From positions 1 to 64,000 of the forward strand of contig JADGPS010000004.1 in the NCBI GenBank assembly GCA_017882285.1: 64,000 bases of DNA, read 5' to 3'. Shown piece by piece: positions 16,499 through 21,839 of this stretch; the stretch's first letter is position 1; each line of letters begins with the position of its first letter. The notes under the pieces were generated by a model, which was given only the letters and a program-made list of their open reading frames with translations, made no database searches and was not told the origin of the DNA. The position numbers and the translations under genes are program-made. Source of the stretch: Paludibacter sp. (GTDB lineage Bacteria > Bacteroidota > Bacteroidia > Bacteroidales > Paludibacteraceae).

Positions 16499-18349
16499 AT
16501 GATTAATCGTATTAAGACTTTGAAAAAGAATTATCTATTTCTATTCTTAGCAGTTTTGTATGTAAATTTTGTTTTTGCGCAGTCCAATGTGAAAGACAGT
16601 ATTCAACTGAGTGATATCGTTGTAACCGGTTCAAAAATAGAGATCTCCAGAAAAATTATTCCGCTTTCTGTTTCGCAAATTTCAAGACAAGATATAGAAA
16701 ACAGTGGTCAAATGAATATCCTACCGGCATTGAATATGTACACACCCGGTGTTTTTGTTACCGAACGGAATATTCTGGGTTTTGGGGTTTCAAACACCGG
16801 TGCCGGGGCAATCACCATGCGGGGAATCAGCAGTTCGCCCAATACTGATGTGTTGGTTTTAATTGATGGACATCCTCAATATCAGGGCATTTTTGGACAT
16901 CCGTTAGCCGACGCGTATGTGGCTTCGGATGTGGAAAAGGTTGAAATTATTCGCGGTCCGGCTTCCATTCTGTATGGTTCGAATGCCATGGCAGGAGTGA
17001 TTAATATTATTACCAAAAAGCAAAAAGAAGATGGTTTTCAACTCAATCTGGGCGCTTCTTACGGATCTTTCAATACGCAAAAATATTTTGGAACAATAGG
17101 TTATAAAAAAAACAAATTAAGTGCTTATGCATCTGTAAATCATGACCAAACCGATGGAATCAGGGCTAATACCGATTTCAATATCTCGAATGGTTATGCA
17201 AAAGTGGGTTATGAAATCAACAACCATTTTGACGTGATTGCCGATTTCAGTATTGCAAAGTATTATGCGAATGATAACGGACCAAATACATTATTAAAAC
17301 CACTACCTTTTAATATCGATATTACTCGAGGAAAAACATCTTTATCCATCGATAATAAGTTTGAAAAATCGGAAGGTGGATTTAAATTTTATCACAATTT
17401 TGGTACGCATAATACTTTTGATTCAATAAATGGAAAATTTCGTTCTACCGATAATAATACCGGTGCTATGCTTTTTCAAACATTTAAACTTGCAACCGGA
17501 ACGACTATCACTGCCGGTGCTGATTTTAAACAATACGGCGGAATAGCCAATCACGGATTTAAACACGATTCGTTGATTACAGTGAATGAGTTGGCAGCGT
17601 ATGCTTACGTCCAACAGACTTTGTTTGAAAAACTAACTGTCAGTGCGGGTTTAAGGCTTGAAAATAACTCCAAGTTTGGTAATGAACTTATTCCTATCGG
17701 CGGGCTGACTTATAATTTATCCAATGCAACGACATTCAAAGCTTCTGTTTCAAAAGGGTTTCGAAGTCCTACCATTATGGAACTGTACCTTTACGCACCC
17801 AATCCCGCTTTACAACCCGAACGCATGATTAATTATGAAATCAGTTGGTTGCAATCCTTGCTCAATAATCATTTAAATCTTGAATTAACGGCATTTAAAG
17901 TGAAAGGTGATAATCTTATACAAGTTGTTGGTATAGGTTATTCAGCTAAACGGGAAAATGTGGGTTCGTTCGATAACCATGGAATAGAGTTTTCAACCAG
18001 ATACATGTTAAACAGCAATCTGTATTTTAATGCCAATTACAGTTATCTCAATTTGGATAAACCTGTTATTGCCGCTCCCCGTCAGCAAGTGAACGTGGGA
18101 GCAAATTATAGTTATAAAATATGGAGTTTACACATTTCGGCTCAATATATTGAAAACTTGTACACTTCGGTTCAACCTTTAGTAACTCAAAGCTATGCGC
18201 TTCTTAATGTACGTTTATCGGCAAGACCAACCAAATTCCTGGAGTTAGATATTGCCGGAAATAATTTGACAAACGCTCAATATCAGATTAATTACGGCTA
18301 CCCCATGCCGGGAATTAATTTTAATGGTGGAGTGAATGTGAGGTTTTGA
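16499..18349 (+). CDS. TonB-dependent outer-membrane receptor
   Basis: A 616-residue protein. The signal peptide ends near FVFAQS (about residue 28). A TonB-box-like DIVVTG follows at about 40. The plug domain has ITMRGISSSPNTDVLVLIDG and VEKVEIIRGPASILYGSNAMAGVINIITK. A 22-strand-type barrel ends with aromatic-rich strands and a C-terminal Phe (NVRF). There is no CarboxypepD_reg or STN domain, so it is not SusC-like and probably not coupled to an anti-sigma factor. It resembles vitamin B12/siderophore receptors (BtuB, CirA), but the substrate cannot be read from sequence and there is no linked transporter. Confidence 0.9.
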   Translation: MINRIKTLKKNYLFLFLAVLYVNFVFAQSNVKDSIQLSDIVVTGSKIEISRKIIPLSVSQISRQDIENSGQMNILPALNMYTPGVFVTERNILGFGVSNTGAGAITMRGISSSPNTDVLVLIDGHPQYQGIFGHPLADAYVASDVEKVEIIRGPASILYGSNAMAGVINIITKKQKEDGFQLNLGASYGSFNTQKYFGTIGYKKNKLSAYASVNHDQTDGIRANTDFNISNGYAKVGYEINNHFDVIADFSIAKYYANDNGPNTLLKPLPFNIDITRGKTSLSIDNKFEKSEGGFKFYHNFGTHNTFDSINGKFRSTDNNTGAMLFQTFKLATGTTITAGADFKQYGGIANHGFKHDSLITVNELAAYAYVQQTLFEKLTVSAGLRLENNSKFGNELIPIGGLTYNLSNATTFKASVSKGFRSPTIMELYLYAPNPALQPERMINYEISWLQSLLNNHLNLELTAFKVKGDNLIQVVGIGYSAKRENVGSFDNHGIEFSTRYMLNSNLYFNANYSYLNLDKPVIAAPRQQVNVGANYSYKIWSLHISAQYIENLYTSVQPLVTQSYALLNVRLSARPTKFLELDIAGNNLTNAQYQINYGYPMPGINFNGGVNVRF

Positions 18350-18401
18350 AATTAATTTGAACTTTTTTATAACAGTTTGGTTGTAATTATAAAAATATTA
18401 T

Positions 18402-18409
18402 TACTTTTG
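18402..18409 (+). promoter_or_regulatory. -7 box of the phe leader and operon
   Basis: TACTTTTG is preceded 18 bases earlier by TTG (18381-18383). Transcription would start about 20 bases before the leader peptide ATG. Confidence 0.65.
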
Positions 18410-18436: not shown

Positions 18437-18490
18437 ATGATCAATCGATTTTTTACATATTTCTTTTTTTACTTTTACTTTAGCCGGTGA
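18437..18490 (+). CDS. Phe/Tyr-rich attenuator leader peptide
   Basis: A 17-codon frame reads MINRFFTYFFFYFYFSR then TGA: seven Phe and three Tyr among 17 residues. It lies between a promoter box and a terminator hairpin ahead of the prephenate dehydratase operon. The stop codon abuts the first arm of the antiterminator, as expected if a ribosome reaching the stop blocks that arm. The codon content matches the end products of the operon. This is the control peptide of a transcription attenuator. Confidence 0.85.
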   Translation: MINRFFTYFFFYFYFSR

Positions 18491-18579
18491 GAGCAGGATA
18501 GCCTTTATGTAAAAAAACAAAACTATATTAATAGAAAATACATGAAAATCCTGCTCAAATACGAGTAGGATTTTTTTTT
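18491..18579 (+). terminator. Phe attenuator: antiterminator and terminator hairpins
   Basis: Three complementary arms are present: GAGCAGGAT (18491-18499), ATCCTGCTC (18548-18556) and GAGTAGGAT (18563-18571), the last running into nine Ts. Arms 1 and 2 pair perfectly over 9 bp (antiterminator). Arms 2 and 3 form the terminator with one G-U pair and U-tract. The two pairings exclude each other. Stalling at Phe/Tyr codons would free arm 1; completing the leader would cover it and permit termination. Confidence 0.85.
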
Positions 18580-18587
18580 AGAAAATC

Positions 18588-18633
18588 GGGCAAATCGGAA
18601 TTATTCACTGAGGTCATGACCTCTGGTTTGCCC
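18588..18633 (+). promoter_or_regulatory. Second structured element in the pheA leader
   Basis: GGGCAAATC (18588-18596) pairs with GGTTTGCCC (18625-18633), and GAGGTCATGACCTC (18610-18623) is a perfect palindrome inside. It has no U-tract and ends 17 bases before the pheA ATG, so it may affect translation or bind a regulator. Function unknown. Confidence 0.45.
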
Positions 18634-18650
18634 ATACCAAAACAAAAAAT

Positions 18651-19496
18651 ATGAAACGAGTAGCTATTCAGGGAGGTTTAGGAGCTTATCACGGCATTGC
18701 AGCTGAGAATTTTTTTGTGGATGAAGAAGTTGAAATCATACCTTGTGTCAATTTTAAAGATATTTTTACCGCTATAAAAAAAGACTCAAACGTGGTTGGA
18801 ATCATGGCGATAGAAAATACCATTGCAGGAAGCTTATTACCTAACTACGAACTGCTGAAAGAACATAAGCTTCCTATAGCAGGTGAGTTCAAATTAAGGG
18901 TTTCGCATTGCCTGGCTGCATTGCCTGGTCAAACCATTCATGATATTAAAGAAGTACAGTCGCACCCGATAGCTTTGATGCAATGTGCCGATTTTTTAGG
19001 AACTTTACCGGGAATTAAAGTGGTTGAACACGAAGATACTGCCCTTGCTGCCCGTGATATTTCGAAATATAATTTATTGGGAAATGCCGCTATTTGTAGT
19101 GAACGTGCAGCCGAAATCTACGGATTAACCGTTTTGGCACATGGAATTGAGACCAATAAACGCAATTTTACCCGCTTTCTGATTTTTGGGAATTCGTGGA
19201 TGGTGGACGAAATTCAGAAAGACGATTCCATTAATAAGGCGTCTGTCGTTTTCACTTTGCCTCATGCCGAAGGAAGTTTGTCGAAAGTATTGTCGGTTTT
19301 CTCATTTTACGGTATCAACCTGACCAAAATTCAATCCTTGCCGATCATAGGCCGCGAATGGGAATATCAGTTTTATGTGGATTTTACATTTGATGATCTG
19401 GAACGCTACAAACAATCGGTTGCGGCTATAAAACCACTGATAAGTGAACTGAAAACACTGGGTGAATATCCGGAAGGAATAACACCGAATGAATAA
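18651..19496 (+). CDS. pheA: Prephenate dehydratase
   Basis: Converts prephenate to phenylpyruvate in phenylalanine synthesis. The 281-residue protein has the periplasmic-binding-like catalytic domain (1-180), with GIMAIENTIAGSL and the active-site motif NFTRFLIFG. The C-terminal ACT domain starts at about 195 (GSLSKVLSVFSFYGINLTKI). The usual allosteric ESRP motif reads QSLP, so feedback by Phe may be changed. There is no chorismate mutase domain; that activity is fused to the DAHP synthase two genes on. First gene of an attenuated aromatic operon. Confidence 0.95.
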   Translation: MKRVAIQGGLGAYHGIAAENFFVDEEVEIIPCVNFKDIFTAIKKDSNVVGIMAIENTIAGSLLPNYELLKEHKLPIAGEFKLRVSHCLAALPGQTIHDIKEVQSHPIALMQCADFLGTLPGIKVVEHEDTALAARDISKYNLLGNAAICSERAAEIYGLTVLAHGIETNKRNFTRFLIFGNSWMVDEIQKDDSINKASVVFTLPHAEGSLSKVLSVFSFYGINLTKIQSLPIIGREWEYQFYVDFTFDDLERYKQSVAAIKPLISELKTLGEYPEGITPNE

Positions 19497-19535: not shown

Positions 19536-20702
19536 ATGAAACCTATTATACCTGCCGAACGTTTAAGTTCAATAAGTGAATATTATTTTTCCACCAAGTT
19601 GAAAGAAGTTGCGGAGATGAATGCCAAAGGCCTGAACGTGATTAGCTTAGGAGTTGGAAGTCCCGATTTACCACCTTCGAAAGAAACGATTGAAGCACTT
19701 TGCAAATCGGCTGCGGAGCCTAATGCGCACAGCTATCAACCCTACGTTGGAATTCCCGAACTGCGGAAAGCCTTTGCCGATTGGTATAAAAAATGGTTTG
19801 CGGTAGACTTGAATCCTGCAAACGAAATACAACCGCTTATTGGTTCAAAAGAAGGAATTTTGCATATTTCGCTTGCATTTTTGAATCCGGGCGATGGTGT
19901 GTTGGTTCCCAATCCCGGTTACCCAACTTATTCTTCGGTGAGCAATCTGGTTCAGGCAAAAGTTATAAGTTACGATTTGGACGAAAACAATAACTGGCAA
20001 CCTGATTTCGATGCGCTTGAACAAATTGACCTGAGTAATGTTAAACTTATGTGGGTCAATTATCCGAATATGCCTACCGGTGCAAGTGCTACTCCTGAAT
20101 TGTTTCAAAAATTGGTTGCTTTTGGCAAAAAACACGGCATTGTTATTTGCAACGATAATCCCTACAGTTTTATTCTGAACGAAAACCGATTAAGCATACT
20201 TCAAGTAGAAGGTGCCAAAGATTGTTGTATTGAGTTGAATTCGATGAGTAAATCGCACAATATGCCGGGTTGGCGTATGGGAATGTTGGCTTCTAACGCC
20301 GAATTTGTGCAATGGGTACTGAAAGTGAAAAGCAACATCGACAGCGGTCAATTTAAACCCATGCAGGTAGCTGCCATTGCAGCGTTGAATAATCCGGACG
20401 AATGGCACCGCGAAATGAATATCGAATTATATAAAAACCGTCGTCAATTAGCAGAAAAAATACTCAAAACATTAGATTGTACATTTGATAAAAGTCAGGT
20501 TGGAATGTTCCTTTGGGGGAAAATTCCTGATAAATATAAAGATAGTGGTGAATTGGCTGACAAAGTGCTGTACAACGCGAAAGTATTTATTACACCCGGA
20601 TTTATTTTCGGGGATAAAGGGAATCGGTATATACGACTTTCGCTCTGTGCCAACGAGAAAATGTTGGGAGAAGCACTTGAGAGAATTAAGTTGATAAGTT
20701 GA
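19536..20702 (+). CDS. PLP-dependent aminotransferase, class I/II (aromatic operon)
   Basis: A 388-residue fold-type I aminotransferase. The PLP lysine lies in NSMSKSHNMPGWRMG; VNYPNMPTGA and CNDNPYSFI give the conserved cofactor-binding Asn and Asp/Tyr positions; the C-terminal substrate Arg lies in RYIRLSL. It sits between pheA and DAHP synthase-chorismate mutase with 39- and 78-base gaps, so it probably transaminates phenylpyruvate and/or 4-hydroxyphenylpyruvate (or prephenate). Sequence alone does not separate these from aspartate or LL-diaminopimelate aminotransferases. Confidence 0.88.
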   Translation: MKPIIPAERLSSISEYYFSTKLKEVAEMNAKGLNVISLGVGSPDLPPSKETIEALCKSAAEPNAHSYQPYVGIPELRKAFADWYKKWFAVDLNPANEIQPLIGSKEGILHISLAFLNPGDGVLVPNPGYPTYSSVSNLVQAKVISYDLDENNNWQPDFDALEQIDLSNVKLMWVNYPNMPTGASATPELFQKLVAFGKKHGIVICNDNPYSFILNENRLSILQVEGAKDCCIELNSMSKSHNMPGWRMGMLASNAEFVQWVLKVKSNIDSGQFKPMQVAAIAALNNPDEWHREMNIELYKNRRQLAEKILKTLDCTFDKSQVGMFLWGKIPDKYKDSGELADKVLYNAKVFITPGFIFGDKGNRYIRLSLCANEKMLGEALERIKLIS

Positions 20703-20780: not shown

Positions 20781-21839
20781 ATGGAACTAGAATCAATTTT
20801 ATTACCCGGAGTCGACGGAAAGCGTCCGCTCGTAATTGCCGGGCCGTGTAGTGCGGAGACTGAAGAACAGGTTATGGAAACGGCACGTAGATTGGCTGCG
20901 CGTGGTATAAAGATTTTCCGTGCAGGAATCTGGAAACCACGAACTAAACCCGGAGGTTTCGAAGGAATTGGAGTGAAAGGACTTCCCTGGCTTAAACGTG
21001 TTCATAAGGAATTAGGTATGTATACGGCAGTGGAAGTAGCCACGCCCTATCACGTTCGTGAGGCGTTGGCACACGATGTAGATATTCTTTGGATTGGAGC
21101 ACGCACTTCAGCCAATCCGTTTGCCGTTCAGGAAATTGCAGACGCATTGGAAGGTGTTGATATTCCTGTTTTTATAAAAAATCCGGTTAATCCCGATTTG
21201 GATTTGTGGATTGGAGCCATCGAGCGAATTCACAATGCAGGTATTCGTCGTATTGCCGCTATACATCGCGGTTTCAGTACATACGATAAAAAGATCTATC
21301 GCAATTTACCGCAATGGCATATTCCTATCGAACTTCACCGTCAGATACCTAATTTGCCGATAATTTGTGATCCAAGTCACATTGGCGGGAAACGGGAATT
21401 GATAGCACCGCTTTGTCAGCAAGCAATGGACCTGAATTTCGATGGTTTGATTATTGAATCGCATTGTAATCCGGACAAAGCATGGAGTGATGCTTTTCAA
21501 CAAGTTACGCCCGAAGTACTTGATTTAATACTCAACTCTCTCGTCATAAGGGATATGACTCAATCGACAGAGAATTTAACTGATTTACGCCATCAGATTG
21601 ATGAACTTGATAACAGTTTGCTCGAATTGCTTGCCCGTCGTATGCGTGTATCCGAAGAAATCGGAACTTACAAAAAAGAACACAATATGTCTATTTTACA
21701 GGAACAACGATACGATGAAATCTTGAGAAACCGAATAGGTCAGGCTGAACAAATGGGAATGGATGGAGAATTTATGAAAACAGTGTTAGTTGCCATTCAC
21801 GAAGAATCAATACGTCATCAACAGGAAATAATGAAATGA
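20781..21839 (+). CDS. Bifunctional DAHP synthase / chorismate mutase
   Basis: A 352-residue fusion. Residues 1-260 are a KDPG/KDO8P-like (AroA-beta) DAHP synthase, with VIAGPCSAETEEQ, RAGIWKPRTKPGGFEG, IGARTSANP, FIKNPVNPDLDLW, ICDPSHIGG and IIESHCNPDKAWSDA. Residues 262-350 are an AroQ-type chorismate mutase helix bundle (LRHQIDELDNSLLELLARRMRVSEEIGTYKKEHN). It therefore supplies both the first reaction of the shikimate pathway and prephenate for PheA. The fusion is characteristic of Bacteroidetes. A tyrA gene, often next in this operon, is absent; a terminator follows instead. Confidence 0.95.
   Translation: MELESILLPGVDGKRPLVIAGPCSAETEEQVMETARRLAARGIKIFRAGIWKPRTKPGGFEGIGVKGLPWLKRVHKELGMYTAVEVATPYHVREALAHDVDILWIGARTSANPFAVQEIADALEGVDIPVFIKNPVNPDLDLWIGAIERIHNAGIRRIAAIHRGFSTYDKKIYRNLPQWHIPIELHRQIPNLPIICDPSHIGGKRELIAPLCQQAMDLNFDGLIIESHCNPDKAWSDAFQQVTPEVLDLILNSLVIRDMTQSTENLTDLRHQIDELDNSLLELLARRMRVSEEIGTYKKEHNMSILQEQRYDEILRNRIGQAEQMGMDGEFMKTVLVAIHEESIRHQQEIMK

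Follow-up and report, generated by a model that had tools for sequence, protein, structure and literature searches.

The pheA operon considered here lies in a stretch of 64,000 nucleotides (hereafter the window) from a genome of Paludibacter, a member of the Bacteroidales. Three genes make up the operon: pheA (prephenate dehydratase), one for an aminotransferase of class I/II and one for a fusion of DAHP synthase with chorismate mutase. The tyrA gene of this genome is situated elsewhere, away from the pheA block; of 55 long related loci, 29 have tyrA as the block's fourth gene. Between an outer-membrane receptor gene and pheA lie a promoter, a short open reading frame (ORF) and a set of complementary RNA segments that ends in an intrinsic terminator (Table 1).

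Table 1. Features of the pheA locus and its leader (positions are those of the window).
Feature	Position	Strand	Remarks
Outer-membrane receptor gene	16499-18349	+	5' neighbour of the leader, same strand
Bacteroidota-type promoter	18376-18409	+	TTTG/GTTG near 18376-18383 (-33 region); TAnnTTTG (TACTTTTG) 18402-18409
Leader peptide ORF MINRFFTYFFFYFYFSR	18437-18490	+	ATG 18437; stop TGA 18488-18490
Segment 1 (protector strand, TTTTTTACATA)	18449-18459	+	within Phe-Phe-Thr-Tyr codons
Segment 2 core (arm 1, GAGCAGGAT)	18491-18499	+	begins at first base past the stop codon
Segment 2, second part (TTTATGTAAAAAA)	18504-18516	+	partner either upstream (segment 1) or downstream (18539-18546, antiterminator extension)
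Segment 3	18539-18556	+	inner extension 18539-18546 plus arm 2 (ATCCTGCTC) 18548-18556
Intrinsic terminator	18544-18579	+	arm 2, loop AAATAC, arm 3, nine Ts 18571-18579
Arm 3 (GAGTAGGAT)	18563-18571	+	3' side of terminator hairpin
pheA, prephenate dehydratase	18651-19496	+	PF00800 (PDT), E 1.7e-52
Class I/II aminotransferase	19536-20702	+	PF00155 (Aminotran_1_2), E 1.2e-62
DAHP synthase fused to chorismate mutase	20781-21839	+	PF00793 (DAHP_synth_1), E 1.3e-41; PF01817 (CM_2), E 4e-23

A second hairpin (GGGCAAA...TTTGCCC around GAGGTCATGACCTC; -18.7 kcal/mol) stands between the terminator and the start of pheA, at 18588-18634. A 36-nt part of it has an 86% copy elsewhere in the genome (G000:C109), and the spacer between terminator and pheA is much shorter in many relatives.

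A sequence-only reading of this DNA had described a 17-codon peptide with seven Phe and three Tyr, a TAnnTTTG promoter, and three arms followed by nine Ts. The leader ORF gives the same count (17 codons, among them 7 Phe and 3 Tyr), the promoter motif is present 27 nt 5' of the leader ATG, and the T run is in place, as is each of the three arms. The set of arms was nevertheless incomplete: a fourth (protector) segment, TTTTTTACATA, is added here.

Close relatives keep the leader motif [T/A]YFxFYFYFS[R/K], and among relatives both the composition and the frame of the peptide are conserved: the order of Phe and Tyr varies, while the content of the two is kept. T or C occupies the third position in 703 of the 706 TTN/TAN codons of the Phe/Tyr block; these codons of the putative leader show coding constraint. 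Averaged over 131 leaders there are 6.4 Phe and 4.2 Tyr per leader, with a minimum of two Tyr in every one. Certain Tyr positions (TACTTTTACTTT) are nearly invariant at the nucleotide level, and other Tyr positions move among relatives. On the 5' side, all 74 non-redundant leaders have TAnnTTTG no more than 70 nt from their ATG, compared to 5% in shuffled sequence. A further short ORF, MKILLKYE (18542-18568), runs across the terminator: because it is absent in relatives, it was taken as chance.

The terminator hairpin has a predicted energy of -17.5 kcal/mol (z -7.1; none of 200 shuffles was equally good), and the antiterminator on its own folds at -16.4 kcal/mol. Dinucleotide shuffles of the spacer produced a complement to arm 2 that matched arm 1 in quality in only 2 of 5,000 cases, one of them at stop+0 to stop+3. 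A scan of both strands showed the combination of a short ORF, a terminator and a matching arm 1 to be present at this site alone in the 64-kb window; a simple terminator scan did not include the terminator in its list.

In enterobacterial trpL and pheL leaders, segments pair 1:2, 2:3 and 3:4. In the MFE structure of the pheA leader, TTTTTTACATA (18449-18459) is paired with TATGTAAAAAA (18506-18516), which is located after arm 1. Since these two sequences are able to pair, the leader looks like the four-segment type, with pairings 1:2, 2:3 and 3:4; confidence is lowest for the 1:2 (protector) pairing. On the MAFFT alignment the columns past arm 1 are out of register and several pairs stand near 50%, so that this helix could not be counted there and complementarity was scored sequence by sequence instead. 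The mean score among relatives is 17.5, compared to 13.3 for shuffled sequences (largest shuffle mean 14.0), a difference that is significant for the whole set and not for many single sequences. Variants of the protector are matched on both strands (ACATA/TATGT, GCATA/TATGC, TCTTATACA/TGTATGAGA). In addition, TTTATGTA has an alternative partner, TACATGAA, just 5' of arm 2, and this pairing lengthens the antiterminator.

Covariation of the arms was assessed in a set of 62 distinct sequences by counting paired cells against slid and shuffled controls. For the antiterminator 90.0% of cells are paired and 6 pairs have changed on both sides; sliding the partner by one to three columns reduces pairing to at most 46.6%. 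For the terminator 97.7% of cells are paired and 94 cells have changed on both sides, values that none of 500 shuffles reached. Pairing percentages and doubly changed counts thus exceed every shuffle for both helices, and at several positions joint changes span all three arms (for example, third base G/C/G to A/T/A). On this alignment the predicted helices – mutually exclusive as antiterminator and terminator – covary.

Recurrence was examined in a sample of 80 named loci from GTDB genomes plus further loci from two genome searches, using a fixed detector that required an ORF with at least six Phe/Tyr in 14 codons, a terminator no more than 130 nt away and a complementary arm. A Phe/Tyr leader stands 5' of pheA in nearly all related loci examined. 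The detector was positive at 108 of 110 order-level pheA loci, and at 23 of 27 more distant ones (these being the best-scoring pheA matches rather than a random sample, with a few from outside the class). Applied to random 500-nt windows it gave 0 positives in 1,375, which argues that the layout is not chance. In the two order-level failures (L062 and L086) the leader and hairpin are visible by eye, and the T run is weak. The same detector gave no positive among 20 regions 5' of pheA in families that belong to the phylum but not to the class; we therefore make no phylum-wide claim. As judged by this detector, the putative attenuator layout is conserved across the class Bacteroidia.

From this computed anatomy – ORF, arms, covariation, the position of arm 1 with respect to the stop codon and recurrence across the class – we infer a course of events in which translation of the ORF is coupled to transcription, and termination or read-through depends on the amino acids sensed. 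RNA polymerase would start just past TAnnTTTG and transcribe the leader, and a ribosome would begin to translate the 17-codon peptide. With charged tRNA-Phe or tRNA-Tyr in short supply, this ribosome would stall on a Phe or Tyr codon, of which there are ten, and open segment 1, so that segment 2 (arm 1 plus TTTATGTA) could pair with segment 3 once the latter is made; pairing of segments 2 and 3 would deprive arm 3 of arm 2 and allow read-through into pheA, the aminotransferase gene and the DAHP synthase/chorismate mutase gene. With charged forms of both tRNAs at hand, the ribosome would reach the stop codon and bury arm 1: arms 2 and 3 would then form the terminator and the transcript would end near 18579.

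This switch was modelled by folding the transcript as far as arm 2 while the ribosome footprint – assumed, and of the E. coli type – was kept unpaired. The modelled probability of pairing between arm 1 and arm 2 is 0.98 with the P site at codons 2 to 14 (at 14 the last Phe codon is in the A site), falls to about 0.65 at codon 15, and is no greater than 0.01 at codons 16 and 17: the block of Phe/Tyr codons thus extends just to the point past which a stall would make no difference. The same folding predicts, for 72 of the 74 non-redundant leaders, an antiterminator that a stall favors, whether at the middle Phe/Tyr codon or at the last, and that disappears once the ribosome is at the stop. Arm 1 is positioned at the stop in 62 of the 74 and inside the ORF in ten, with its start 12-20 nt ahead of the stop codon's end; in the model, a ribosome at the stop covers arm 1 of the 72 fitting leaders either from the front or from behind. 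The remaining two (L073 and L080), both Bacteroides-type, do not fit the covering model: arm 1 starts as much as 27 nt ahead of the stop codon's end, and with the ribosome at the stop the pairing probability is 0.61-0.74. Since their arm 1 is left uncovered by the modelled ribosome at the stop, either the footprint or the logic of the switch has to be different. In Bacteroides and kin (L067, L070, L072-L074, L079-L081, L111, L112) the ORF continues through arm 1 and has the conserved end KVEREFVC(I/V)K.

Folding of the complete RNA at equilibrium favors the terminator at any ribosome position. The switch must therefore be kinetic, and requires a close race between ribosome and polymerase; no evidence for such a race in Bacteroidia was found. 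According to PMC9976891, ribosomes of Bacteroidia do not recognize Shine-Dalgarno sequences, and efficient initiation on the pheA leader is thus an assumption.

Two further leaders are present in the same genome. The pheA-leader covariance model has a second genome match (E 6.4e-5) 5' of leuA, where a Leu/Ile leader, MNKSYLHILLLGIIILLQNK (L147 815-877; G000:C33, leuA at 1176), has arm 1 at its stop, followed by a terminator. A Trp leader, MKSLLTVNKFWWWHLQIS (L160 3118-3255, minus strand; G000:C93), is found 5' of trpB/trpE and matches Rfam Bacteroid-trp (RF01692): its arm 1 is also at the stop and pairs with the terminator's loop and 3' side. Simulation of the leu and trp leaders gave the same switch at the stop as for the pheA leader. 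That the codons follow the pathway (Phe/Tyr, Leu/Ile, Trp) makes an explanation other than attenuation hard. In this genome, no comparable leader was found for his or thr. Other weak matches to the leader model (L142-L146) are terminator hairpins that are unaccompanied by a leader ORF.

The hairpin might merely terminate the receptor gene, or an independent small RNA, with the Phe/Tyr ORF a by-product of T-rich sequence. The receptor gene does end at 18349 on the same strand, and many small RNAs with such hairpin ends are present in Bacteroides transcriptomes (PMC7366714), but a promoter is situated between the receptor gene and the leader, the leader accompanies pheA in genomes across the class, third codon positions are T or C in 703/706 cases, and arm 1 covaries with arm 2: we consider this explanation very improbable. 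Marginally less credible again is direct sensing of Phe or Tyr by a riboswitch or a protein-binding switch, to which the ORF would be incidental. Such a switch would account for an RNA that is structured and conserved; however, the conserved features are codons and simple arms rather than a compact aptamer, there is no match to an Rfam riboswitch, the peptide changes its F/Y order and keeps its F/Y content, and the leaders of leu and trp genes in this genome carry codons that match their pathway.

An attenuator of the same type could also respond to Phe only, the Tyr codons being passengers kept for RNA pairing. In favor of this reading, there is more Phe than Tyr, and at some Tyr positions (TACTTTTACTTT) the nucleotides hardly vary. 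Other Tyr positions nevertheless move, at least two Tyr are present in 131 of 131 leaders, and the operon contains DAHP synthase and often tyrA too; a response to Phe alone is in our view unlikely rather than far-fetched. Joint sensing of Phe and Tyr by the pheA leader is a reasonable reading, because every detected leader has at least two Tyr and tyrA is often in the block.

The locus thus holds a short Phe/Tyr-rich ORF, an intrinsic terminator between this ORF and pheA, a covarying and mutually exclusive antiterminator, and a geometry – computed with an assumed footprint – in which stalling frees arm 1 and completion blocks it. We regard it as highly likely that these elements form a ribosome-mediated transcription attenuator 5' of the pheA operon that senses Phe/Tyr supply; leader and RNA switch very probably turn on the Phe/Tyr synthesis genes when these amino acids are scarce. 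The Phe/Tyr attenuator had been proposed from the initial reading, and its anatomy (peptide, placement of arm 1, covarying helices, promoter) has held in relatives; the suggestion that the Tyr codons fit control of DAHP synthase agrees with the DAHP_synth_1 and CM_2 domains in the operon and with the Tyr counts. A broader proposal – that the attenuator is ancestral and class-wide in Bacteroidia, dependent on tight ribosome-polymerase coupling despite Shine-Dalgarno-blind ribosomes, and rewired in Bacteroides-type species, where the ORF runs through arm 1 and another ribosome position decides – is possible, if rather doubtful.

The mechanism is a textbook one, yet barely described in Bacteroidia. 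The enterobacterial pheA/pheL leader (RF01859, Phe_leader) is alike in its Phe-rich peptide, its exclusive antiterminator and terminator, and the prephenate dehydratase gene downstream; the pheA leader described here differs in its Tyr codons, in an arm 1 that abuts the stop, in its TAnnTTTG promoter, and in an operon that includes an aminotransferase and DAHP synthase. The RF01859 model scores 22.2 bits on the pheA leader, below the gathering score of 55, which places it outside that family. Bacteroid-trp, a curated leader (PMC2864571) and the sole curated Bacteroidota case met in this analysis, is likewise a leader-peptide attenuator with arm 1 directly past the stop, but its codons are Trp and its arms differ; the RF01692 model has no match to the pheA leader, and when the window and eight loci of relatives were scanned against Rfam, no named family was returned for this leader.

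As of 2010, leader-peptide systems were known from Proteobacteria and Actinobacteria only (PMC2965389). Short ORFs resembling leader peptides are mentioned for the B. thetaiotaomicron transcriptome (PMC7366714). For Flavobacterium psychrophilum, the accessible part of a transcriptome study reports clues to leader peptide attenuation 5' of amino acid operons and, 5' of pheA, a structured element that is conserved within Flavobacteriaceae and has no Rfam match (PMC9723704). Gene and phylum are the same as for the Bacteroidales leader; for pheA, neither a peptide nor arms nor a mechanism is described in that part of the source, and Bacteroidales fall outside its coverage. We found no description of a Bacteroidales pheA leader in the literature searched, a search with most subscription journals outside its coverage. 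Taken with the leaders for Leu and Trp, a class-wide Phe/Tyr leader would mean that attenuation is a standard form of control over amino acid synthesis in Bacteroidia. Moreover, since such an attenuator works only if the ribosome keeps up with RNA polymerase, it would be a natural reporter of transcription-translation coupling in these bacteria.

Four loci of the same family (L092, L093, L097 and L105) have two tandem Phe/Tyr-rich leader ORFs 5' of pheA. The second peptides, such as MNTINFSIRFYYWFYFMNS, contain a Trp, and in three of these loci (L092, L093 and L105) a second terminator is recognized by eye.
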